Positions 61-15,231 of a stretch of 30,182 nucleotides of DNA are shown here, in pieces; within the stretch, counting starts at the first letter, position 1, and each line of letters starts with the position of its first letter. The position numbers were made by a program, and so were the translations under genes. Origin of the DNA: a virus. The notes under the pieces are model-generated. The model made no database searches. It saw nothing but the letters and a program-made list of their open reading frames with translations, and was not told where the DNA came from. Location of the stretch: positions 1-30,182 of IMG/VR virus record IMGVR_UViG_3300036717_000098. One strand, written 5' to 3'.

Positions 61-512
61 TAGGCGTTACGCGCTTTACGTAATTTATCAAAGTTGATAG
101 GAACTTTTCGCATTTCCGAAAGTATGTTATCGATGTAAATTAGTTTGTTTGGAAACTTTTTATGATCGAAATGTTCGCGCGCTGATTCGACAATAAAGAT
201 AAGCATTGGTATTTTTATTTTTTCTAAATCTTGTCCTGGCGTAATGGCTTCCAGAAACTCACGCGGCCATTCTTTTGATCTAGCCATTGGAAGACCTTCA
301 AAGATTCTATCTTCCAGTCGTGCCATCCACTCCGGAATTCCTAATTCCGTTTCATAATCCTTGTGATCAGACCCGTGAATCGTGCACCCGACAGCACAGC
401 CCTTTTTGCCCGTCCAGTATTCGCCCTTGATCAATTCATCAGCTTTTTGATGAGCTATCACTCGGTTCAAATATTTATCTTTAATTTCTTGTTTGTTAAA
501 ATATGCTTCCAT
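1..512 (-). CDS. Phage protein with Ala/Asp repeat tail (partial)
   Basis: The gene runs off the left edge of the window, so its C-terminus is missing. The visible 170 residues start MEAYFNKQEIKDKYL and contain the segment KGCAVGCTIHGSDH, followed by ETELGIPEWMARLEDRIFEG. I recognise this as a recurrent phage/bacterial hypothetical family with a globular N-terminus and a low-complexity Ala tail. From about residue 151 the protein becomes ADAAAAAADAAAA, encoded by almost pure GCC/GAC triplets. The start at 512 was chosen because the upstream small gene ends in TAATG overlapping this ATG and GGAGAAGGTG lies just before it. An in-frame ATG 45 nt upstream (557) is an alternative but would overlap the upstream gene. 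Function is unknown; the Cys and His residues in the conserved segment could bind metal, which is inference. Confidence 0.75.
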   Translation of the reverse strand, partial: MEAYFNKQEIKDKYLNRVIAHQKADELIKGEYWTGKKGCAVGCTIHGSDHKDYETELGIPEWMARLEDRIFEGLPMARSKEWPREFLEAITPGQDLEKIKIPMLIFIVESAREHFDHKKFPNKLIYIDNILSEMRKVPINFDKLRKARNAYTADAAAAAAADAAAADAAA

Positions 513-604
513 TATGCCACCTTCTCCAATCGTTCTGCTAAATAAGGTCTTTGCCATGAGCCCTTCCAAATCTCACTCACTTTCTTTTCGTCTGAGTCGC
601 TCAC
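512..604 (-). CDS. 30-residue small protein, GTG start
   Basis: A 30-residue reading frame begins with GTG inside a GTGA overlap with the stop of the upstream gene and ends in TAATG overlapping the next start. Both junctions are the translational-coupling types used throughout this arm. AGGTGG sits a few bases upstream of the start. The peptide begins MSDSDEKKVSEIWKG and ends YLAERLEKVA; it is charged and probably helical. No family is recognised. The frame remains open upstream of the GTG, so a longer form cannot be excluded, but the coupled start is the best choice. Confidence 0.55.
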   Translation of the reverse strand: MSDSDEKKVSEIWKGSWQRPYLAERLEKVA

Positions 605-930
605 TTCCCACCTTGCTTGTTTAGGAGTTTGCGAGCTCTGATCATAAAATCCGACCACACTTGAAAATTTAGAGCGCTGTGTTTTGTCATTTCTTCGAGT
701 AGACCTACAGCATTATCTTCGACTTCGATAGGCTCGATCATGATTAGTCTGGCTTGGTGGGTGTCGATCTGTTTTTCCTCTTTGGTGCACCAAGAGTTTA
801 GCCCGTGCGCTTGTGCGCCATAAACAACCTTACTCCGCTCGAGGATGAGTCCGTTTAGGAAGTCATATTTCTCTAGCCTACCCATTCCGTAGGTGCGCGC
901 AATATCATCTTCAGTAAAGAAGTCACTCAT
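601..930 (-). CDS. Hypothetical phage protein, 109 aa
   Basis: This 109-residue soluble protein begins MSDFFTEDDIARTYGMGRLE and ends in a basic RARKLLNKQGGK. There is no signal peptide or membrane segment, and no family is recognised. The start overlaps the upstream gene's stop by four bases (ATGA type) and the stop overlaps the next gene's GTG. It sits in a run of coupled small genes at the distal end of the early operon, a usual place for host-takeover or anti-defence genes, though that is only a positional inference. Confidence 0.75.
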   Translation of the reverse strand: MSDFFTEDDIARTYGMGRLEKYDFLNGLILERSKVVYGAQAHGLNSWCTKEEKQIDTHQARLIMIEPIEVEDNAVGLLEEMTKHSALNFQVWSDFMIRARKLLNKQGGK

Positions 931-1196
931 AGGCTGGCCGTTTCGAGCACTGCCGCGAACGTTTCTTCGTAAGCTTTTCTCATTTCAAGGGCCACTTGTG
1001 CGAGCTTTTTAATTGCAGCCAAATTCGCCGATGCCTTTATATAAAGTGTCGGGTCAACGATTGGTGCTACTGTCTCAGCATTTGAAATGCATTTTAGAAA
1101 CGCTTCAAGGTCAAGAGAGTTCGCAATCTTGCCCATTTCGATGATTCGCATTTGTGTTGTAATATAGGTCTTACCGTCCATAACGTGTTCTTTCAT
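927..1196 (-). CDS. Hypothetical helical phage protein, 89 aa
   Basis: The 89-residue product starts MKEHVMDGKTYITTQMRIIE and continues as a mostly helical, Ala-rich sequence ending ETFAAVLETASL. A clean AGGAGG lies about 8 nt before the ATG, which itself overlaps the TGA of the upstream membrane-protein gene. The stop overlaps the downstream start by four bases. No known domain is recognised. The strong ribosome binding site suggests it is translated well relative to its neighbours. Confidence 0.75.
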   Translation of the reverse strand: MKEHVMDGKTYITTQMRIIEMGKIANSLDLEAFLKCISNAETVAPIVDPTLYIKASANLAAIKKLAQVALEMRKAYEETFAAVLETASL

Positions 1197-1357
1197 ATGT
1201 GTAACCTCCTACACGACCATTCAAATAAATCGCACAAGCCCCAAGGAATCAGTATTGGCGATAAGATGATCGCAAACACTAACATGACTGCGCCAATAAA
1301 CAGAAAACTAACTACCACAAAAATGAATGCGAAAAAAGTTAAAAGACGATCAATCAT
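1193..1357 (-). CDS. Small two-helix membrane protein, 54 aa
   Basis: The product starts MIDRLLTFFAFIFVVVSFLF and has two adjoining hydrophobic stretches (about residues 5-22 and 23-39), then an amphipathic, Cys- and Trp-containing tail ending CRRLHI. A longer frame extends upstream to 1627, but that extension lies inside two genes in other frames and reads as low-quality sequence. I therefore start at the ATG that overlaps the upstream TGA (ATGA, 1354-1357). It and the gene before it form a pair of tiny inner-membrane proteins. A holin role is possible, but nothing specific shows it. Confidence 0.6.
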   Translation of the reverse strand: MIDRLLTFFAFIFVVVSFLFIGAVMLVFAIILSPILIPWGLCDLFEWSCRRLHI

Positions 1358-1542
1358 CTTAACCTCACTTTCGGGAAGTGGGGAATCTGTACACCCATAG
1401 CTTGAAGGAGAAAAAGAATCATGTAGACCGCCACAAGTGCCACGATGATACTTCGAAGCGACGGCGGCATCGAGATGCGGTAAGCTAGCTGATAGATGAA
1501 ACCACAAACTCCTACAGTAAACAAAAGCCCAATTAGATTCAC
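1354..1542 (-). CDS. Small two-helix membrane protein, 62 aa
   Basis: This 62-residue protein has an N-terminal hydrophobic helix (MNLIGLLFTVGVCGFIYQLA), a short turn with ISMPPSLRS, a second helix (IIVALVAVYMILFLLQAMGV) and a short basic tail. The layout resembles the very small two-transmembrane proteins common in bacteria and phages (for example Thivi_2564-like proteins), a resemblance by eye only. The start overlaps the upstream stop and the end overlaps the next start, each by four bases. Function is unknown. Confidence 0.65.
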   Translation of the reverse strand: MNLIGLLFTVGVCGFIYQLAYRISMPPSLRSIIVALVAVYMILFLLQAMGVQIPHFPKVRLR

Positions 1543-1817
1543 GACAAAGCCCCTCTTGATTTAATGGCCGCTTCAATCGCGGGCCAAAGTGTTTCGAAAT
1601 CGATTTGCGCAGCCACACAAGCACCAACTTGCGTTTCGAGCACCAAACAAAATGACGGCTTATTATCTATGGACCCGTCTGGAATGACGTGAATTTCAAC
1701 TGGCCTGATTTCTGAGACGACAGGAAGGTAGAGTTCAATTGGTGAGGAGGCCTTCCAAAGATAGGTGGGGCATTCCGGGTGGTCAGAGACGACCGTGCGA
1801 TTATGTGAAGCTTTCAT
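1539..1817 (-). CDS. Hypothetical phage protein, 92 aa
   Basis: A 92-residue soluble protein starting MKASHNRTVVSDHPECPTYL and ending AIKSRGALS. It is predicted to mix beta strands (roughly residues 27-66) with a C-terminal helix. No signal peptide, membrane segment or known motif is seen. The ATG follows one base after the upstream TAA and the stop overlaps the downstream ATG, so it is part of the same coupled transcript. Confidence 0.65.
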   Translation of the reverse strand: MKASHNRTVVSDHPECPTYLWKASSPIELYLPVVSEIRPVEIHVIPDGSIDNKPSFCLVLETQVGACVAAQIDFETLWPAIEAAIKSRGALS

Positions 1818-2027
1818 TTAGGCCCTATCTGGAAGCGGAGGCGGCCCGCTCCCTGGTGGCCATGCAGGCCCTGGGTTTTTGTTTCGCTCAGCCATTCCGC
1901 GCCAAAACTCGACGTCCTTTTTAAGGTCGCGAATTTCCCCATCGTGAATAAACCCAGCCCAATCGCGCCCGGCGTACATGCCTAAACAAAATAGAATTAT
2001 GCCGCCCGCGAGCATTGCCAAAATCAT
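1818..2027 (-). CDS. Single-pass membrane protein with Pro-rich tail
   Basis: The protein begins MILAMLAGGIILFCLGMYAG, one transmembrane helix, followed by a charged helical segment (HDGEIRDLKKDVEFWRGMAE) and a Pro/Gly-rich end (PPGSGPPPLPDRA). I chose the ATG at 2027 because it overlaps the upstream gene's TGA (ATGA) and has GGAAGAG about 9 nt upstream. A start 21 bases earlier (2048, MVEETPS) is in frame and also possible. The layout of one membrane helix plus a coiled segment is reminiscent of inner-membrane spanins, but the protein is short and no lysis genes adjoin it, so I do not assign that role. Confidence 0.6.
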   Translation of the reverse strand: MILAMLAGGIILFCLGMYAGRDWAGFIHDGEIRDLKKDVEFWRGMAERNKNPGPAWPPGSGPPPLPDRA

Positions 2028-2158
2028 CGACGGCGTCTCTTCCACCATTTGATGGTGTCGTTTCCGACGTACCCGGCTAAGACTCCTACCAATATTGATT
2101 CAGGTCCGAAGGCCAAAGCCCATGCCTGCCAGATTTTTATCGGACAAATGTTTATCAT
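2024..2158 (-). CDS. 44-residue membrane protein
   Basis: This 44-residue frame starts MINICPIKIWQAWALAFGPE, has one hydrophobic segment through SILVGVLAGYVG and ends in the positive stretch KWWKRRRR. Its ATG overlaps the stop of the DUF3310 gene (ATGA, 2155-2158) and its own TGA overlaps the next ATG (2024-2027). The two coupled junctions and the membrane-anchor composition argue that it is real despite its size. Function is unknown. Confidence 0.6.
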   Translation of the reverse strand: MINICPIKIWQAWALAFGPESILVGVLAGYVGNDTIKWWKRRRR

Positions 2159-2661
2159 TTCTTTCCCATCTCGTTAGGACGGCAAGCCGCCCGGCCCTCT
2201 TTTTCAGCCTTTAGATTTTCAATGTAGCGGAGCAAATACCAAGCCGCTTTGTCTAAGTCCTCTATCAACTTGGCGGGGTCTTTACGGCCTGCGCGGCTTA
2301 GATACTTTACAGTGTTGCCAATATGATAGCCGAGCTTTTGGTCTTCAATAAATTCAATGACTTCGATTTTCCCGAAGTTGTAGTGGGGCGGGTGGTTCAC
2401 TAAATCTTTACTCGGAAACATTTTTTCAAGGTCTTTTTTAGCAACCCCTTCGTAGTTATTATGATCCTTGTCATACGGAAACTTCTCAAAAGTAAGTTTC
2501 CATTCAGGAGGCAAAAATCTAGTAAGATCTATGACCAATTTTTCAGTCGGCGGAGGGTTCATTTCTATCGTTAACACTCTATGAATGATGTCTTCGGTAA
2601 CTCGAAAGCTAGCAATATCATGCTTTTTTAAAATTCGAAGAATGTCCTCTTCTAAACTCAT
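2155..2661 (-). CDS. DUF3310 family protein
   Basis: The C-terminal half carries the DUF3310 signature: VNHPPHYNFGKIEVIEFIED (about residues 88-107), then GNTVKYLSRAGRK and a helix with DLDKAAWYLLRYIE. Members of this family occur in many phages; T7 gp1.7, a nucleotide kinase, is the best studied relative. The N-terminal 80 residues are unassigned. A role in nucleotide metabolism is inferred from the family. The gene starts within the TGA of the upstream membrane coiled-coil gene (four-base overlap) and ends overlapping a 44-residue membrane protein. Confidence 0.8.
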   Translation of the reverse strand: MSLEEDILRILKKHDIASFRVTEDIIHRVLTIEMNPPPTEKLVIDLTRFLPPEWKLTFEKFPYDKDHNNYEGVAKKDLEKMFPSKDLVNHPPHYNFGKIEVIEFIEDQKLGYHIGNTVKYLSRAGRKDPAKLIEDLDKAAWYLLRYIENLKAEKEGRAACRPNEMGKK

Positions 2662-3077
2662 TGGGTCACCTTTGTTGTTCTTCGGGTTGCGTTATAGTTA
2701 GGAGTCTTTGGCTTCAACGGGTCTTTTTGAATCACTACGTTGACCGTTCTCGTTGTCTCGATGATTCGCTTTTCTAAAGTGCGCTGACGAACCACCAACG
2801 TCTCAATCTCTTTATGGAGTTTGTCGTAAACGGCCTCAAGCTGATTTAGTTTTATGCTGTAGTCGGCGAGCTTATTCTTGGTGAATAAAATCTCATTGTC
2901 CTGCCTTTTAATACTCCCGAAGTAATTTTCTGAGGCCTGGAAATATTCCACGGCTCGGTCTCTAACGGTATTCATATCCCTACGTAAAAGTGCGACTCTC
3001 TCATCGTCCCTCAATCCGTAAACAATAAGAGCTAGTGCGATTGAGATGACAACTACCGATAAAATATAGATGATCAT
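2658..3077 (-). CDS. Membrane-anchored coiled-coil protein
   Basis: An N-terminal transmembrane helix (MIIYILSVVVISIALALIVY) is followed by about 90 residues of heptad-like charged/hydrophobic sequence (about 45-107), probably a coiled coil, then a basic Thr-rich tail ending RRTTKVTQ. The protein should sit in the inner membrane with its coiled coil in the cytoplasm or periplasm; orientation is not clear. AAAGGATAAG lies just before the ATG. It is the first protein gene after the tRNA on this strand. No specific family is recognised. Confidence 0.7.
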   Translation of the reverse strand: MIIYILSVVVISIALALIVYGLRDDERVALLRRDMNTVRDRAVEYFQASENYFGSIKRQDNEILFTKNKLADYSIKLNQLEAVYDKLHKEIETLVVRQRTLEKRIIETTRTVNVVIQKDPLKPKTPNYNATRRTTKVTQ

Positions 3078-3093
3078 AACTTATCCTTTCAAA

Positions 3094-3169
3094 TGGCTGG
3101 GTTGGTAGGGCTCGAACCTACGACCACACCGTTAACAGCGGTGGGCTCTTCCAACTGAGCTACAACCCA
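3094..3169 (-). tRNA. tRNA-Asn(GTT)
   Basis: A complete 76-nt cloverleaf is present on the minus strand. The acceptor arms TGGGTTG and CAACCCA pair over 7 bp. The D arm is GCTC-AGTTGGAA-GAGC, the anticodon arm CACCG-CTGTTAA-CGGTG with anticodon GTT, and the T arm GTAGG-TTCGAGC-CCTAC. The discriminator is G and the CCA end is encoded. It lies 17 nt upstream of the coiled-coil gene and only 2 nt downstream of a large inverted-repeat element on the same strand. It would read AAC/AAT codons. Confidence 0.95.
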
Positions 3170-3171
3170 TC

Positions 3172-3282
3172 AGTGATGCGCTAAAAGTAAAGACCGAATT
3201 TCTACTACGTTGCGTGGCCCAGAGTTTTTAGGAACGGGCACGTCGTATCGGTCGGGTAGTGACTCCCTGTTAGCGCATCACT
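3172..3282. ncRNA. Putative 111-nt structured RNA beside the tRNA
   Basis: The ends form a perfect 13-bp inverted repeat (3172-3184 with 3270-3282). Inside it, GACCGA (3192-3197) pairs with TCGGTC (3248-3253). The latter directly adjoins a second stem, TACG-TT-GCGT-G-GCCC (3206-3220) with GGGC-ACGT-CGTA (3236-3247). A third short hairpin, GGG-T-AG-TGA-CT-CCC (3254-3267), completes a three-way junction. No open frame of note occupies the region. On the minus strand it ends 2 nt before the tRNA 5' end, suggesting co-transcription. The one G-U pair used favours the plus strand slightly, so strand is left open. It does not match a ribozyme or riboswitch that I recognise. Confidence 0.5.
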
Positions 3283-3303
3283 CAAAAGTTCAATCGCGTT
3301 CGA

Positions 3304-3357
3304 AAAACTCAAAGCGCGCGCACGCGGAGTGTGTGACGTCCCGGCGCGCACGCTTTG
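3304..3357 (-). terminator. Rho-independent terminator after SSB gene
   Basis: On the minus strand CAAAGCGTGCGCGC pairs with GTGCGCGCGCTTTG (14 bp with two G-U pairs) around an 18-20 nt loop, followed at once by AGTTTTTCG. It lies about 40 nt after the stop of the ssDNA-binding protein gene. The G-U pairs would be mismatches on the other strand and the T tract is only on this side, so it acts on minus-strand transcripts. It would separate the recombination genes from the structured RNA, tRNA and distal genes. Confidence 0.75.
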
Positions 3358-3396
3358 ATGTAAACTAAAAACGCTCAACCACGAACATCTTAGTTT

Positions 3397-3996
3397 TTAA
3401 GCAAAGTCTTCATCAACATCGTCGGCATTATCATCGCTACTCATAGCTCCCGCGTTTACAGGCGAAAATACTTGATCGGCCGATTTCTTACCACCAAATG
3501 ATTTGCCGTCGCGAAGTTTTTGCACATGATCTAAAATAAATCCAACGCCCCTTTTGCCCGCAAACTCCCATACATACGCATAGACGTAAGCACGAGCGTA
3601 GCAACCCGGGTAAAAATCACTCGGCTCTAAAATAGGTTGCACGTTCTCGTCCACTACGCCTGGACGCTGGTCTTCATTCGTTGAAGCCTTAATAGCCCAG
3701 CACCCTTTATAGCCGTCTTTATCGGCGTGCTTTGGGCTATCGCCGTCAACTACGGGCGACTCAAGATCATCCGGCCAACTATCTTTGTCAGCTCCGAACT
3801 TTGCAATCTTGGCCTCTTTGATTGCGTTTTTAATTGGTGATAAATCAGAGTTCTTTGGAAAAAGCATCGTGACTGAAAACTTAGGCTTTCCCCCTTTAAA
3901 CGCGTTCGCCTTAAAGACGTGAGGGTAGCTCACTCTGAATTCAGGTGTTAGTAGTCGTGATTTCTCTTTATCTGCTTTTGGCGCTTTAGCTGCCAT
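3397..3996 (-). CDS. Enc34-type (DUF2815) ssDNA-binding protein
   Basis: The 199-residue protein matches by eye the DUF2815 / Enc34 phage ssDNA-binding family: an early LTPEFRVSYPHVFKANAFKG strand region, then KPKFSVTMLFPK, and a central FYPGCYARAYVYAYVWEFAG segment typical of the OB-like fold. The tail is acidic and ends DDVDEDFA, like the partner-binding tails of SSB proteins. It should coat single-stranded phage DNA in the cytoplasm during replication or recombination. It lies beside a DUF2800 gene, its usual partner in phage genomes. ATG is preceded by a GGGGAGAA ribosome binding site. Confidence 0.85.
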   Translation of the reverse strand: MAAKAPKADKEKSRLLTPEFRVSYPHVFKANAFKGGKPKFSVTMLFPKNSDLSPIKNAIKEAKIAKFGADKDSWPDDLESPVVDGDSPKHADKDGYKGCWAIKASTNEDQRPGVVDENVQPILEPSDFYPGCYARAYVYAYVWEFAGKRGVGFILDHVQKLRDGKSFGGKKSADQVFSPVNAGAMSSDDNADDVDEDFA

Positions 3997-4028: not shown

Positions 4029-4322
4029 TTATGCGTTACCAATAGTGTCGTCATCAGTGTCAAACTCTTCGGCATCTTGTTCATAAGCAGGTTCATGCGC
4101 ATCATCGGATGCGTGCACTTCTTCCCCTTGCGTTTCAAGACCGTTATCAATTGCCGAAACAGGCAACTCATCAGTAGAAGTTCCCAACTCCTTTTTTGGA
4201 GCGGCCTTCCCTGGCTTTTTTGCGCCACTCCGCCTCGCTTTTAAGACCTTTTTCTTTGACGAGACTTTCTTCTTGGATTTCGATTTCGCCTTGACTGACG
4301 ATTTTAATTTTTTCTTTGCCAT
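4029..4322 (-). CDS. Lys-rich basic/acidic protein
   Basis: The N-terminal half is extremely Lys/Ser-rich (MAKKKLKSSVKAKSKSKKK and onward), like histone-H1-type or disordered nucleic-acid-binding tails. The C-terminal half is strongly acidic (EEFDTDDDTIGNA). An ATG three bases upstream (4325) is the alternative start; 4322 was preferred because GGGGGA then has a usable spacing. The first 152 nt overlap the end of the DUF2800 gene in another frame, unusually long for this arm. The protein may bind DNA or the neighbouring ssDNA-binding protein; this rests on composition alone. Confidence 0.55.
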   Translation of the reverse strand: MAKKKLKSSVKAKSKSKKKVSSKKKVLKARRSGAKKPGKAAPKKELGTSTDELPVSAIDNGLETQGEEVHASDDAHEPAYEQDAEEFDTDDDTIGNA

Positions 4323-5067
4323 CATTTCCCCCTATAGGATTAGTTTTAAAAATCTCAATTGCTTTCTCAAATTTGGCCTCCCTCTTCAATGGGCAGATTG
4401 ATTTCGCACGGCAAAAATAACACCAAGAACCTTCCTTATATTCCGGCTTGTTCTCAACTCGCCATACGGCATCACGAAAAACTTTAACGTAAGCTTTCAG
4501 TTCGTCAATGGTTATGTCCCAAAAAGTTGGGCCATCGTAACCCTTGATGCGCGGCTGAATAATCCAAAGTCTTACCGTCTGAAAGTTCCACTGGTACTTG
4601 GCTGCGAGGCCAAGCCCGTAGAAAATCATTTGAAGGTTCTCTTTGGCACTCACCGCGTGACCAGCACCATATTTAAAATCGAAGACGTGAAGAGTTCCGA
4701 AGTGGTCGAGCACTGCGCCGTCGAAGGTTCCAAACATTTCAGGATGAATGAAATCTAGATAGACGCGCGTTTCGACCAGGACTTCAGCGTTTAGCTCGGC
4801 CCCTTTTTTAAGCATGAAATGAGCAGCGTCTCTCGCGTGAGTGTACATTTCAGACCTCGGCGCAGAAACAAACGCACCAGCCGTATTGGGACTTAAAAGC
4901 TTAAGCATCATCTCTTCTAACAGCTCGTGGGCCTTAGTCCCCTCTTCGGCCCACACGCTTGTCTTATCGGGCTGCCCTTCCGACGCCTCGACAGAGGCGC
5001 TACATTGCGTCCAACGTTCGGAACCACTCGCCGAGAACTTAGAATGCGCCCTTCCCCCATGCTTCAT
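4171..5067 (-). CDS. DUF2800 family, Cas4/RecB-like protein
   Basis: The start motif SKFSASGSERWTQCSASVEA and the EEGTKAHELLEEM segment (about 41-53) are characteristic of DUF2800 proteins, which are related to RecB/Cas4 nucleases. A nuclease core is suggested by GTFDGAVLDHFGTLHVFDFK (D...DFK, roughly residues 113-132). A Cys cluster follows at CYFCRAKSICPLK (about 217-229), the usual place of an iron-sulfur-binding cluster. The 298 residues are shorter than most relatives I know, and the last 50 codons overlap the Lys-rich gene in another frame. It probably processes DNA ends for recombination with the adjacent ssDNA-binding protein. The ATG overlaps the upstream TAA (TAATG). Confidence 0.8.
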   Translation of the reverse strand: MKHGGRAHSKFSASGSERWTQCSASVEASEGQPDKTSVWAEEGTKAHELLEEMMLKLLSPNTAGAFVSAPRSEMYTHARDAAHFMLKKGAELNAEVLVETRVYLDFIHPEMFGTFDGAVLDHFGTLHVFDFKYGAGHAVSAKENLQMIFYGLGLAAKYQWNFQTVRLWIIQPRIKGYDGPTFWDITIDELKAYVKVFRDAVWRVENKPEYKEGSWCYFCRAKSICPLKREAKFEKAIEIFKTNPIGGNDGKEKIKIVSQGEIEIQEESLVKEKGLKSEAEWRKKAREGRSKKGVGNFY

Positions 5068-5306
5068 TATCCGTCTTCTCTTTCAAATGAGCCAAGCTCC
5101 GCCGGTAGCCTTTGAAGTTGCCCGTCCCGAAGTGCTTTCCCGATCCACATGTAGGCCTCTTCTAACTTTTGAAGCGCCAAGATTTTAGGCGCCCCTGGGT
5201 CAAGGGCCTCAACGTGAATGGTGAGTTCGGTGAACATCGCCTTAAAGCCTTGTTGGGCCGCTAACGCGATGTCGTCGTACTTTACGTAGTCATACCGTCC
5301 GGCCAT
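5067..5306 (-). CDS. Candidate Acb2/Tad1-type cyclic-nucleotide sponge
   Basis: This 79-residue helical protein contains LALQKLEEAYMWIGKALRDG (about residues 43-62). That matches my memory of the Acb2/Tad1 hairpin-domain signature (AL-x-KLEEA-x-MW-x-x-KAI) preceded by a Pro-containing turn, here LDPGAP. Known members bind the cyclic nucleotide signals of CBASS or Thoeris immunity and so stop defence activation; whether this protein does so is inference. The length fits the short Acb2 form. It is coupled on both sides by TAATG overlaps, sitting between an acidic protein gene and DUF2800. The N-terminal residues are MAGRYDYVKYDDIALAAQQG. Confidence 0.65.
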   Translation of the reverse strand: MAGRYDYVKYDDIALAAQQGFKAMFTELTIHVEALDPGAPKILALQKLEEAYMWIGKALRDGQLQRLPAELGSFEREDG

Positions 5307-5773
5307 TAGATAGCCATCGCTTCAATCACGGCAGCGTAATCACCAGGATCGATTTCAGTAATGCTTTCTGTCTTGAACTTCTTTTTCAAGATTGAAAGAA
5401 CCTGTTCGCGACCTTTTTTACCGCCTGCACGTGCTCTTGCTTTACAGGCGTCGTTCACTTCCGAGACCGTAACTTTTTTAGCTTTCTTTGTAGTCACGAA
5501 ATCGTCTTCATTAGTCGTTGTCCCGGTTTCTTCAACTTCAGTTTCTTCGTCTTCATCAAACGTCGCCGCAGCCCTTTTTGTGCCCGTAGCCGTTTTCTTA
5601 GTCTCGAAGTCTTCGCCCGCCTGGTCCGTATTAATTGTCGTTCTTGTTTTTCGAGTGGTCTTCTCTTCGAGCGGCGAGCCGTCTAAGTTATCCGCAAACG
5701 CTCTTAAGTGTTTCACTAGGTCAACGCGGTTCTTACCCGTCACTGATACTGTGATTTGATTTTCCGTTGTCAT
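5306..5773 (-). CDS. Phage protein with acidic linker and C-terminal helical domain
   Basis: The start at 5773 (MTTENQITVSVTGKN) follows AAGGAGAAC at good spacing. An upstream in-frame extension to 5854 overlaps the preceding gene and is rejected. Residues 1-40 form a short beta-rich head, about 41-95 is a Thr/Glu-rich linker, and the last 55 residues (VTVSEVNDACKARARAGGKK to the end) form a small helical domain. I recall this domain as recurring at the C-termini of phage proteins, with the pattern of a gly-x-x-x helix followed by ITEIDPGDYAAVIEAM. Function is not known. It heads a TAATG-coupled set with the Acb2-like gene. Confidence 0.75.
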   Translation of the reverse strand: MTTENQITVSVTGKNRVDLVKHLRAFADNLDGSPLEEKTTRKTRTTINTDQAGEDFETKKTATGTKRAAATFDEDEETEVEETGTTTNEDDFVTTKKAKKVTVSEVNDACKARARAGGKKGREQVLSILKKKFKTESITEIDPGDYAAVIEAMAI

Positions 5774-5804
5774 ATTTGTTCTCCTTGGTTTTGCCTTTCG
5801 GCGG

Positions 5805-6014
5805 TTATTTATATAGTCTCGTTCTTTCTCTCGGGACAAGCCCTGACTCCTCACGCGTTAGCGGCCTTGTAAGCAAAATCTTTTCAACCGGCCAACCTTG
5901 TTTGAAGCGCGTGTAGATGGTTGAGCGATCTAGTTTATAAAGCTTTGCCCACTGGCCAAGACTTTTTGTTTCGCCCTGATAGGCGAAATAGATAACGGGC
6001 CTCGGATTGTTCAT
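5805..6014 (-). CDS. Small HTH-like phage protein
   Basis: The 69-residue product has a core ETKSLGQWAKLYKLDRSTIY followed by TRFKQGWPVEKIL. The pattern L-x-x-WA-x-x-x-x-x-x-x-STI-x-x-R-x-x-x-GW is a helix-turn-helix-like module seen alone in many phages and at the ends of HNH endonucleases. It probably binds DNA, but partner and site are unknown. The ATG at 6014 overlaps a TGA in the alternative frame of the preceding tiny gene. Confidence 0.7.
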   Translation of the reverse strand: MNNPRPVIYFAYQGETKSLGQWAKLYKLDRSTIYTRFKQGWPVEKILLTRPLTREESGLVPRERTRLYK

Positions 6015-10906: not shown

Positions 10907-11101
10907 ATGCAAAAGGCTTTAGAAATAGTAATTCAAACGATGGCTGAGTACGAATCAGCGCTAGATGCACTTCGCCTCAAATATGACGAAACTGATTCTA
11001 ACCACCCGATGGTCCAAGTAGTGATTGCTCAAGACATAGCTCTTGTTGCCGCTAAGCTTGATGCGATGAAACATCTCTACAAAATCTTAGGCGGCGTCTA
11101 A
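10907..11101 (+). CDS. Small helical protein, 64 aa
   Basis: The 64-residue product (MQKALEIVIQTMAEYESALD to HLYKILGGV) is predicted to be two helices. It has no membrane segment and no recognised family. AAAGGACG is correctly spaced before the ATG. It is the first gene behind the candidate promoter and is coupled to the lipoprotein gene by a TAATG overlap. Confidence 0.7.
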   Translation: MQKALEIVIQTMAEYESALDALRLKYDETDSNHPMVQVVIAQDIALVAAKLDAMKHLYKILGGV

Positions 11102-11658
11102 TGAAACTACTCATCTTGGTTTCATCGGTTTTAATTTTCGTAGCCTGCGGCTCGTCAGGCGGCAGCGGCGCTTCCGCTTCAAGAGCAGCTCAGCCGTCCA
11201 TTACGCCAAGTTCAACGCCTGCTCCGAGTCCGGCCCCAAGCCCTGCGCCTGCACCGGCTCCAAGTTCAACGCCTGCACCGGCTCCTGCTCCAAGTTCAAC
11301 GCCTGCACCGGCTCCTGCACCGAGTCCGGCCCCAAGCCCTGCACCTGCTCCAACAACGCTTTCTTGCATTGGTGATAATCCAGTTTCGTGCACGGGCGGC
11401 AATCTCGGAAGCTCCACTGTGAATCTTGATCTTGATGCAATCTTTACCGGGAACAATCCACAAGAGGTTTTACAAGCGATTGTAACGGTCAGTAATGTGG
11501 ACGCGAACTCGAATTCGGTTTGCGCTGAACCGTCAGGCTGCTTTGAAAACAGCGTTTGCATATACGCAACGATTTGGATAGTAGGTACATCGGAAACGTT
11601 TAGTGTCGTGAGCTGCGGTAATACCGTTAGCAACGCTCGAACCTTGGTGGACGAATGA
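11101..11658 (+). CDS. Pro-Ala-Ser-rich outer-membrane lipoprotein
   Basis: An N-terminal signal peptide ends in a lipobox (LIFVACGSS, C16), so the mature protein should be a lipid-anchored envelope protein. Residues about 30-85 are a repeat of PAPAPSSTPAPAPAPS type, a flexible extended linker. The last 100 residues form a small Cys-rich domain (C88, C96 and further Cys residues in NSVCAEPSGCFENSVC and VSCGN) likely stabilised by disulfides outside the cytoplasm. Phage-encoded surface lipoproteins often block superinfection; that role is an inference from location and architecture. It sits in an accessory block with its own promoter. Confidence 0.8.
   Translation: MKLLILVSSVLIFVACGSSGGSGASASRAAQPSITPSSTPAPSPAPSPAPAPAPSSTPAPAPAPSSTPAPAPAPSPAPSPAPAPTTLSCIGDNPVSCTGGNLGSSTVNLDLDAIFTGNNPQEVLQAIVTVSNVDANSNSVCAEPSGCFENSVCIYATIWIVGTSETFSVVSCGNTVSNARTLVDE
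11211..11352 (+). repeat. Proline/alanine/serine-coding repeat
   Basis: CCT/CCG-GCT/GCA units and a recurring AAGTTCAACGCCTGC block (three copies from about 11209) encode the PAS-type linker of the lipoprotein. Such repeats expand and contract easily. Confidence 0.75.
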
Positions 11659-12566: not shown

Positions 12567-13844
12567 ATGGCCAAGCTTTCAGACCTAAATCCTAATCCAA
12601 AAAATCCCCGATCCATCACTGAGCCGAAGTTAAAGGCCCTTCAGGCGGCGCTGGTTGAGTTCGGCGACCTTGGTGGGTTTGTATACAACCGAAAGACGAA
12701 ACAACTCGTGGGCGGGCACCAGCGGCTTAAGCTTTTTGACGCGAACGCGCCCATAGTCCTTGAGAAAAAATACAATAAGCCAACCAAAACCGGAACGGTC
12801 GCTGAAGGCTTTATTGAACTTAAAGGCGAGCGTTTCAAGTACCGCGAAGTCTTATGGGATTCCATACGTGAAAAGGCCGCAAACATCGCGGCCAACAAAG
12901 GTGCAGGCGATTGGGATAATAAACTCTTGACCGAATGGTTCAAAGAAATCGACGCGCTCGATTTCAATCTGGATTTGACAATGTTCGACGAAAAGGAACG
13001 TGAGAAATATTTAGGCAAAGAGTCAAAACCGGGGCTGACCGATGACGACGAAATACCTGACGAGGTTAAGCCGCGCGCACAGCTTGGGCAAATATGGCAA
13101 CTTGGCAATCACCGGCTCATGTGTGGGGACAGTACTTCGTTAAGCGATGTTGAACGGCTAATGAAGGGCGAGAAGGCTGAAATGTTGTTTACTGACCCAC
13201 CTTATGGTGACAACCATGCGGCGATGGATTTTGACCCAACTCAGGCGAAGCTTGGTAAATCAGTTGTAACCAAAAAGCACAAAATCGCCTCTGATGAGAA
13301 TTTAGACTTTTTGGGTCCGGCATTGAATAGCGCGTCTACTGCTTTGGCTGATAGCGCCACTAAGATTGTTTTTTTCAAATGGAAAAAATGGATTGAAGTG
13401 CGTGAGGCATCTGAGGTTTTTGGTGAGCCGTCCGCATGTATTGTTTGGGATCGCGATGACATTGCTGCCGCAATTATGCGTTTTAATCCATGCCATGAGT
13501 TTGCTTTCCACTGGGGATCACAGACAGACAAGCACTCAAAATCTAATTTGAGAAACGTTTGGCGTTGTCAGAAGGAATATGAGAACAAGGCTCTGCATCC
13601 AACTGTAAAGCCGATTGAAATATTAGCGCCAGCTATTGAGGTTTGCACTGATGCCGGGGATTTAATCCTCGACCTCTTCGGAGGCTCAGGCTCAACCCTC
13701 ATCGCCTGCGAGAAAACAAACCGCAAGTGCTTTATGATGGAACTAGACCCACACTACTGCGATGTCATTGTCACGCGGTGGGAACAGTTTACGGGCCAAA
13801 AGGCAAAGTTGTTAAACAACAAATTGGCAACTAATGGCAAATAA
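12567..13844 (+). CDS. ParB-domain DNA methyltransferase fusion
   Basis: Residues 1-110 form a ParB/Sulfiredoxin-like nuclease domain with the motif LVGGHQRLKL (47-56). The C-terminal part is an amino-methyltransferase in which DPPYG (210-214) precedes HPTVKP (344-349) and the SAM-binding DLFGGSGS (369-376), the beta-class order. It would methylate adenine N6 or cytosine N4; the target sequence cannot be read from the protein. ParB-methyltransferase fusions are common in phages and are usually without a partner restriction enzyme, as here. They may protect phage DNA from host restriction or mark packaging sites. Its stop lies 11 nt inside the next gene. Confidence 0.9.
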   Translation: MAKLSDLNPNPKNPRSITEPKLKALQAALVEFGDLGGFVYNRKTKQLVGGHQRLKLFDANAPIVLEKKYNKPTKTGTVAEGFIELKGERFKYREVLWDSIREKAANIAANKGAGDWDNKLLTEWFKEIDALDFNLDLTMFDEKEREKYLGKESKPGLTDDDEIPDEVKPRAQLGQIWQLGNHRLMCGDSTSLSDVERLMKGEKAEMLFTDPPYGDNHAAMDFDPTQAKLGKSVVTKKHKIASDENLDFLGPALNSASTALADSATKIVFFKWKKWIEVREASEVFGEPSACIVWDRDDIAAAIMRFNPCHEFAFHWGSQTDKHSKSNLRNVWRCQKEYENKALHPTVKPIEILAPAIEVCTDAGDLILDLFGGSGSTLIACEKTNRKCFMMELDPHYCDVIVTRWEQFTGQKAKLLNNKLATNGK

Positions 13845-14214: not shown

Positions 14215-15231
14215 ATGTCGATCATTCAAAAATCAACGCACGAGCCGCTTAACCCTATCTTAGGCACAGTCACTATTCCGGCAATGGAATCACCGACGTT
14301 TCGTTATCTCTTGGCGCAACAAAATAAAACCACAAAAAATGTTTTGCTCGTAGCCCCTTACGCTTTGGGCGACTGCATTTGTGCCGAGCCTGCGATTCGG
14401 TATGCAGTAAACAATTTCGCTGGATGTAAGGTTTCGCTACTAACGGCGTTCCCCGAACTCTTTCAGCATTTGGAGTTAGAAAAGGTTTATAACTCACGTG
14501 AAGGAAATCCTAATTGGGACGACTACTATGTTCTAAAAGGTTACTACGCGGCTGATGAACTCCAATCCGAATTCACCCACAACTTCAATATGCAAATTGG
14601 TGACTACATCGCGACTTGTCTTTTCAAAGGTCAGATTCCGGTAAAAGATCGCAACATCGTTTTAAAGCCCTCAGTCAATTCGTTATCGGCCCAACAAGTT
14701 GTGGTTCATCCGGGAAAACATTGGGTTTCAAAAACTTACCCTAAGCGTTGGTGGGATGCGATTCTTACAGGGCTTATCGGTCAAGGGGTTACGCCTGTTA
14801 TTATTGGCGCAACCGTTGAAGACGGCAAACGTGGAACGGTTGATGTCGATGCCACTAATTGTTTAGACCTTCGAAATAAACTCTCAGTTATGGAATCAGT
14901 TTCTCTAGTGCAGACTGCGCAAGTGGTTCTCACAAACGATTCAGCACCTCTTCATATGGCGGCGTCAGGGGGTGCGTGGATTGGTTATTTCTCAACCGTC
15001 AGGCACGAAGACTTCACCAAGCATTGGCGTGCCGATGAGTGGGGCATAAATCAATTTGGTCATAGGATGCATAACTTCGCTAAAGGAACTATGTGGCAAA
15101 CGACCGATGTAAGTCCTGCACGTAATGGCGCGAAGTATGATGTCATCGACGAGAAGACTTTAATGTCGTGGCTGCCTGAACCTGTTGATGTCGTCAAATG
15201 GACTTGCGGGTTATTATCTGGGCGCGCCTAA
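14215..15231 (+). CDS. Family 9 glycosyltransferase (heptosyltransferase-like)
   Basis: The 338-residue protein has two Rossmann-type halves. The N-terminal half carries APYALGDCICAEPAIR (47-62, with the conserved GD). The C-terminal half carries VVVHPGKHW (162-170), the PVIIGA strand (195-200) and TNDSAPLHMAASGG (240-253), the nucleotide-sugar site of GT-B family 9 enzymes such as ADP-heptose:LPS heptosyltransferases. It could add a sugar to LPS, to a virion protein or to modified DNA; the substrate is not shown. It lies between small and large terminase genes with no gaps (one base after TerS, overlapping TerL by 44 nt), so it is expressed with the packaging genes. Base composition is like the neighbours. 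Confidence 0.85.
   Translation: MSIIQKSTHEPLNPILGTVTIPAMESPTFRYLLAQQNKTTKNVLLVAPYALGDCICAEPAIRYAVNNFAGCKVSLLTAFPELFQHLELEKVYNSREGNPNWDDYYVLKGYYAADELQSEFTHNFNMQIGDYIATCLFKGQIPVKDRNIVLKPSVNSLSAQQVVVHPGKHWVSKTYPKRWWDAILTGLIGQGVTPVIIGATVEDGKRGTVDVDATNCLDLRNKLSVMESVSLVQTAQVVLTNDSAPLHMAASGGAWIGYFSTVRHEDFTKHWRADEWGINQFGHRMHNFAKGTMWQTTDVSPARNGAKYDVIDEKTLMSWLPEPVDVVKWTCGLLSGRA

Follow-up and report, generated by a model that had tools for sequence, protein, structure and literature searches.

The window analysed here, a virus record of 30 kb (30,182 nucleotides) from an uncultured phage, carries on its minus strand a small gene that starts with the ATG at 5306, stops at 5069-5067 and encodes a product of 79 aa (MAGRYDYVKYDDIALAAQQGFKAMFTELTIHVEALDPGAPKILALQKLEEAYMWIGKALRDGQLQRLPAELGSFEREDG). 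Read on the plus strand, positions 5067-5306 contain internal stops. The original prediction gave the coordinates 5067-5306 and the length of 79 aa correctly, leaving unstated the strand, which is minus. It had also placed the gene, coupled, between a DUF2800 gene and a gene for an acidic protein, and this arrangement is seen: both gene junctions are one-base TAATG stop/start overlaps, which makes translational coupling to both neighbours probable. The 79-aa reading frame is real and no chance frame. The features of the locus, with residues equated where applicable with those of Vs.4, the Acb2 of phage T4, are as follows.

3397-3996, minus strand: Enc34-type ssDNA-binding protein of the same gene cluster (Pfam, PHROG).
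4171-5067, minus strand: downstream coupled gene, DUF2800 / PD-(D/E)XK exonuclease (Pfam, PHROG, TAATG).
5067-5306, minus strand: coding sequence of the 79-aa Acb2/Tad1-hairpin family protein, a candidate cyclic-nucleotide sponge (ORF, Pfam, relatives, AF2, viral fold matches).
5271-5297, minus strand: N-terminal motif R4-Y-D-Y7-V-K-Y10-D11-D12, where Y7 is Vs.4 Y8, Y10 is H11 and D11 is T12, a helix cap (mapping, conservation).
5208-5273, minus strand: helix 1, residues 12-33, with K22 (codon 5241-5243) as Vs.4 K23, Lys in 71/74 (AF2, mapping).
5187-5195, minus strand: turn G38-A39-P40, with Ala39 here versus Arg in 71/74 (sub-group alignment).
5145-5180, minus strand: family core L43-A-L-Q-K-L-E-E-A-Y-M-W54, with Q46 for the usual Thr, and Y52 in 73/74 (alignment).
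5109-5192, minus strand: helix 2, residues 39-66, with K57 as Vs.4 R79 and R60 as Vs.4 F82 (AF2, mapping).
5070-5126, minus strand: C-terminal tail, residues 61-79, sub-group consensus D-D-Q-I-x-R-N-G-x-A-x-L-Q-E-E-R-x-N (alignment).
5306-5854, minus strand: upstream coupled gene for an acidic protein, PHROG_408, likely true start the ATG near 5773 (ORF, PHROG, TAATG).

The same-strand cluster also encodes a DUF3310 protein and, upstream, an SNF2-like helicase, and a Prim-Pol/VapE protein is encoded in divergent orientation. A tRNA-Asn (GTT) gene at 3094-3169 (minus strand), also found by Rfam, lies within the phage gene cluster. A gene for a 69-aa protein at 5805-6014 (minus strand) runs across the GTG listed as the start of the acidic gene, for which the ATG near 5773 is probably the real start; the 69-aa protein matches a PHROG family of HNH endonucleases in the C-terminal part of that family, and no HNH motif is seen in it by eye. 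Elsewhere in the window, the plus strand encodes a probable lipoprotein (11101-11658), in which a long stretch of S-P/A-P repeats precedes a cysteine-containing domain, and an N6/N4 DNA methylase (12567-13844) whose N-terminal part is ParB-like by eye. A GT9 (heptosyltransferase-type) glycosyltransferase gene (14215-15231, plus strand) stands directly before the large terminase gene and overlaps its listed start, an unusual site for a glycosyltransferase.

Membership of the 79-aa protein in the Acb2/Tad1 hairpin family is supported by Pfam, by its relatives, by the predicted hairpin and by Foldseek matches. The family had been proposed from the helix-2 motif LQKLEEAYMWIGKAL and a Pro-containing turn (LDPGAPK), both of which are found in the protein, and the assignment was correct. 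In the profile search suggested at the time, the protein matches a single Pfam family, PF24729 (Acb2_Tad1_hairpin), with an E-value of 8.4e-6 and 26.3 bits, 0.7 bits below the gathering cut-off of 27. Relatives strengthen this near miss: 29/30 aligned members of its sub-group match PF24729 at E <= 0.01 (best 5.4e-14), and one relative, L002, scores 32.6 bits, above the 27-bit cut-off. The T4 protein Vs.4 matches with an E-value of 7.1e-20. The nearest PHROG is PHROG_1454 (function unknown; E 5e-5), to which the Acb2-like relatives of Paenibacillus and mycobacteriophage type likewise match best, and some phages with relatives carry the annotation 'cyclic nucleotide sequestering protein'. A profile built from other Acb2-like phage proteins, excluding the sub-group and Vs.4, aligns with window residues 1-60 at 41 bits, a match whose E-value is valid for the 4-sequence set only. 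Among sequence searches of the PDB, profiles alone reached Acb2 and Tad1: with the window protein among its sequences, a broad profile matched 'Acb2 homolog 43' (9ptq) at 1e-8 and Tad1 (7uav) at 5e-5, and a single-sequence phmmer search gave nothing useful (best E 1.4, an unrelated protein). NCBIfam offers no model that matches, not even for Vs.4 or Tad1. We would also point out that genes resembling the Acb2-like L066, among them those of Paenibacillus phages Vadim and Scottie (H70, H71), bear the label 'phosphomannomutase' in some phages of Paenibacillus larvae; these are most likely misannotated Acb2-like sponges.

The predicted structure agrees with this placement. The AlphaFold2 (AF2) model, computed from a 30-sequence alignment, has two long antiparallel helices (residues 12-33 and 39-66) that form a confident hairpin, with a mean pLDDT of 84 and values >90 over most of both helices; the model of L002 has helices 11-33 and 41-73 (pLDDT 87). 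Structure prediction had been named as a check on the hairpin fold, and among viral proteins it is Acb2/Tad1 proteins that lead the fold matches. In the viral library, the Foldseek matches at ranks 1-5, each with a probability of 1.00 (best E 0.034), bear the name 'Acb2/Tad1 hairpin domain-containing protein' without exception, and so do nine of the top ten, the tenth being unnamed. In the PDB, rank 1 is Vs.4 with cGAMP (TM 0.61 and 0.56; best E 2.8), and the L002 model retrieves Vs.4 at ranks 2-3 and Acb2 (8h2x) at rank 4. The E-values of the window protein are not significant in either the PDB or the viral library, as is usual for small two-helix hairpins. Since unrelated helical proteins (EsxG and others) also appear among the PDB matches, the fold alone would not decide the identity of the protein.

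One relative is 55% identical over residues 3-66. A 46-kb contig encodes the same protein unchanged, and since its DNA is 99.9% identical to the window it provides no independent evidence. With one relative as query, 65 loci were found, and scanning viral contigs with a sub-group profile gave 83 relatives, 80 of which were kept. A search of plasmids gave no match to the hairpin protein. The genome collection gave one match only, on a phage-like contig in a Nitrospirota MAG (L074), so that no safe host call can be made from it; this contig, which at 447-3427 repeats the gene order of the window (acidic gene, hairpin gene, DUF2800, ssDNA-binding protein), probably represents a piece of phage or prophage DNA within the MAG. 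In a sequence tree, a starred branch (96/99) unites the window protein with the sub-group and takes in one other row. With its small number of columns and the great length of the branches to Vs.4 and Tad1, the tree was not used for rooting or dating.

An alignment of 74 distinct sub-group sequences, window included, shows which residues are conserved. Near-invariant positions are R4, F5 (Tyr in the window), Y7, Y10, D11, Q18, K22, R39, L48, E49, E50, Y52, M53, W54, G56, K57, R60 (invariant, 74/74), D61, Q63 and R76. Helix 2 is followed by a tail with the consensus RDDQIxRNGxAxLQEERxN, which has no equivalent in Vs.4 and is partly degenerate in the window, with GSF where the sub-group has LQE.

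How the conserved residues relate to ligand binding is suggested by comparison with Vs.4, in which Y8 and F82 stack on cGAMP, hydrogen bonds or salt bridges come from Y8, H11, K23 and R79, the substitutions S74N, T12I and A77I are disabling, and the hexamer interface includes L29, A66, A73 and A77 (Jenson et al. 2023, PMC10097602). Residues were mapped with a broad alignment and checked with the independent profile that is collinear over window residues 1-60. The 74-sequence alignment with Vs.4 added was dropped as a mapping source, as the N-terminal helix of Vs.4 was misplaced there. The direct match to the N-terminus of Vs.4 is weak (-2.6 bits sub-domain), so the equivalences in this part were taken from the broad alignment and from collinearity. 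The resulting pairs, Vs.4 first, are Y8-Y7, H11-Y10, T12-D11, K23-K22, A66-A44, T68-Q46, A73-A51, S74-Y52, A77-I55, R79-K57 and F82-R60. Ligand residues Y8 and K23 are thus kept, R79 is kept as Lys, and H11, S74 and F82 are replaced by Tyr, Tyr and Arg. All six Vs.4 ligand positions (Y8, H11, K23, S74, R79, F82) fall within the 20 most conserved of the 79 columns, with a hypergeometric p of about 1.4e-4 in what is a rough test, as some columns may be conserved for folding. As in Acb2, there is no N-terminal beta domain and the stacking Tyr (Y7) and basic K22 and K57 are present; the second stacking aromatic, Vs.4 F82, is Arg60 here. Since other aligned Acb2-like phage proteins also lack a Phe at this position, F82 defines Vs.4 rather than the family. 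Packing in any hexamer may differ from that of Vs.4 because the A77 equivalent is an Ile. The N-terminal half had been thought to differ from the best known forms, a view that does not hold, as the R-F/Y-x-Y start and the basic residue 22 are typically Acb2-like; judged by sequence, the real differences are the C-terminal tail and, in the window copy, positions 39 and 46.

We propose that the gene is a candidate phage counter-defence sponge of the Acb2 type, and put the probability of this reading at about 0.72. It is based on the family membership, the predicted hairpin, the conserved cGAMP-pocket residues of Vs.4 and the coupled place in a DNA-metabolism cluster. The small helical-hairpin protein would assemble into an oligomer, a hexamer in solved relatives, that would hold cyclic-nucleotide alarm signals of CBASS-like enzymes, and host effectors would then stay untriggered. 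As the window copy retains Y7, K22 and K57, cyclic dinucleotides would be its likeliest ligands. Counting against a sponge are the Pfam score just under the cut-off, the Foldseek E-values, and the changes of F82 to Arg and of A77 to Ile, the residue that disrupts the hexamer of Vs.4 when placed there.

A bolder suggestion is that the sub-group, of at least 74 distinct sequences, is a third type of sponge beside Acb2 and Tad1, with a re-shaped pocket for a signal that neither binds well. Its markers are the near-invariant Y52/K57/R60/D61 and the conserved RDxQIxRNGxAxLQEER tail; an Arg would take the place of the second stacking aromatic, and the tail would perhaps close over the site. We regard this suggestion as tentative and rather doubtful. 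We found no measured ligand for the sub-group in the literature.

The window copy has an oddity of its own. It lacks Arg39, kept in 71/74 members, and Thr46, kept in 65/74. R39 is absent in three members (the window, L033 and L128), all of which also lack T46, a joint loss with a chance of about 0.001 by simple counting that ignores relatedness. The same Arg and Thr occur at the same spacing in Tad1 (SRENACALT; CRENAMAIT in SBSphiJ7), and Vs.4 keeps the Thr (T68) and has no Arg. Acb2 and Tad1 both bind cyclic trinucleotides at the trimer interfaces of the hexamer (reviewed in PMC12043709). The R/T pair may serve the trinucleotide site, and the window copy, missing the pair, may have lost that site and be poor at cyclic trinucleotides; having lost an Arg and a Thr of nearly all relatives, it may have a narrower or altered ligand range.

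The same losses could be read as those of a family member that is losing its sponge function, with the fold persisting while key ligand positions decay. The GSF in the tail and the long branch of the window in the tree would fit such decay, and T68M, a natural change at the T46 equivalent in Bas35, a T4-like phage among those resistant to Panoptes, reportedly reduces the affinity for ligand (PMC12657230). We consider decay improbable. The gene has an undamaged reading frame that is coupled to the genes on either side, and Y7, K22, Y52, K57, R60, D61, Q63 and R76 are all kept. Since R39 and T46 are missing from L033 and L128 too, where most of the other residues are retained, the loss looks like an alternative form and not like decay.

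To about the same degree, we think it improbable that the protein is no sponge but serves the recombination genes beside it, those for the DUF2800 exonuclease and the Enc34-type ssDNA-binding protein (SSB), as an accessory. Its translational coupling to the exonuclease gene would suit such a role, as would the gene order acidic gene, hairpin gene, DUF2800 and SSB, which is common to the window, L074 and L118. Most relatives, however, have no DUF2800 or SSB neighbours within the DNA examined. Their genes lie near terminase or portal genes (L002, L022, L144, L152), with that of L002 flanked by TerL and portal, or among unrelated genes. A gene moving between backbones fits counter-defence better than an accessory role, and the conserved columns are those of the cyclic-nucleotide pocket. 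Varied places on many backbones fit a counter-defence-like pattern, which is no proof.

The other branch of the original prediction, a sponge of Tad1 type that would block Thoeris by sequestering gcADPR, is very unlikely and not supported. In its favour, helix 2 and the C-terminal extension are similar (MWIGKALRDGQ versus MWLGKRTLDRE in 8kbb), and the sub-group has a conserved tail, the part that in Tad1 lines the pocket (PMC12043709). Against it, the pocket of Tad1 is built with loops from a beta domain at the N-terminus (PMC12043709), which was not found in the all-helical AF2 model of this 79-aa protein (142 aa in SBSphiJ7 Tad1), and the N-terminal R-F-x-Y motif is Acb2-like.

If the protein is an Acb2-type sponge as we propose, its sub-group matters for two reasons. 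According to the literature, sponges of the Acb2 type are fairly rare and linked to particular phage groups (PMC11722364). The sub-group is common in uncultured environmental phages and occurs on different phage backbones, and knowing what one of its members binds would tell whether the CBASS signals met by environmental phages are the same or different ones. The joint absence of R39 and T46 is also a natural test of the residues that set dinucleotide versus trinucleotide binding.

Among known systems, T4 Vs.4 (Acb2; PDB 7UQ2; PHROG_717) shares with the window protein the PF24729 family, the best PDB fold match, a similar length (79 versus 88 aa) and the equivalents of Y8, K23 and R79. The window protein differs from it in a much shorter inter-helix loop, in Y10 for H11, Y52 for S74, R60 for F82, I55 for A77 and Gln for T68, and in the extra conserved C-terminal tail of its sub-group. 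Acb2 of Pseudomonas phages (PDB 8H2X), compared here by description and fold, belongs to the same hairpin family and is a weak fold match with L002; it is described as having sites for dinucleotides as well as trinucleotides and one more short helix at the N-terminus (PMC12043709). PHROG_1454, with mycobacteriophage and Paenibacillus-type relatives, has the same N-terminal R-F-x-Y, but identity in named phages is ~36% at best and the aligned Acb2-like relatives of this type lack the RDxQIxRNGxAxLQEER tail. Tad1 (SBSphiJ7, PHROG_2428; PDB 7UAV, 8KBB) shares the C-terminal hairpin core of the ALTKLEEA-MW type, whereas its N-terminal beta domain and gcADPR pocket are both absent from the window protein. 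The family is a known one; what is new is the window protein, an uncharacterised member of it that belongs to a sub-group distinguished by a conserved tail.
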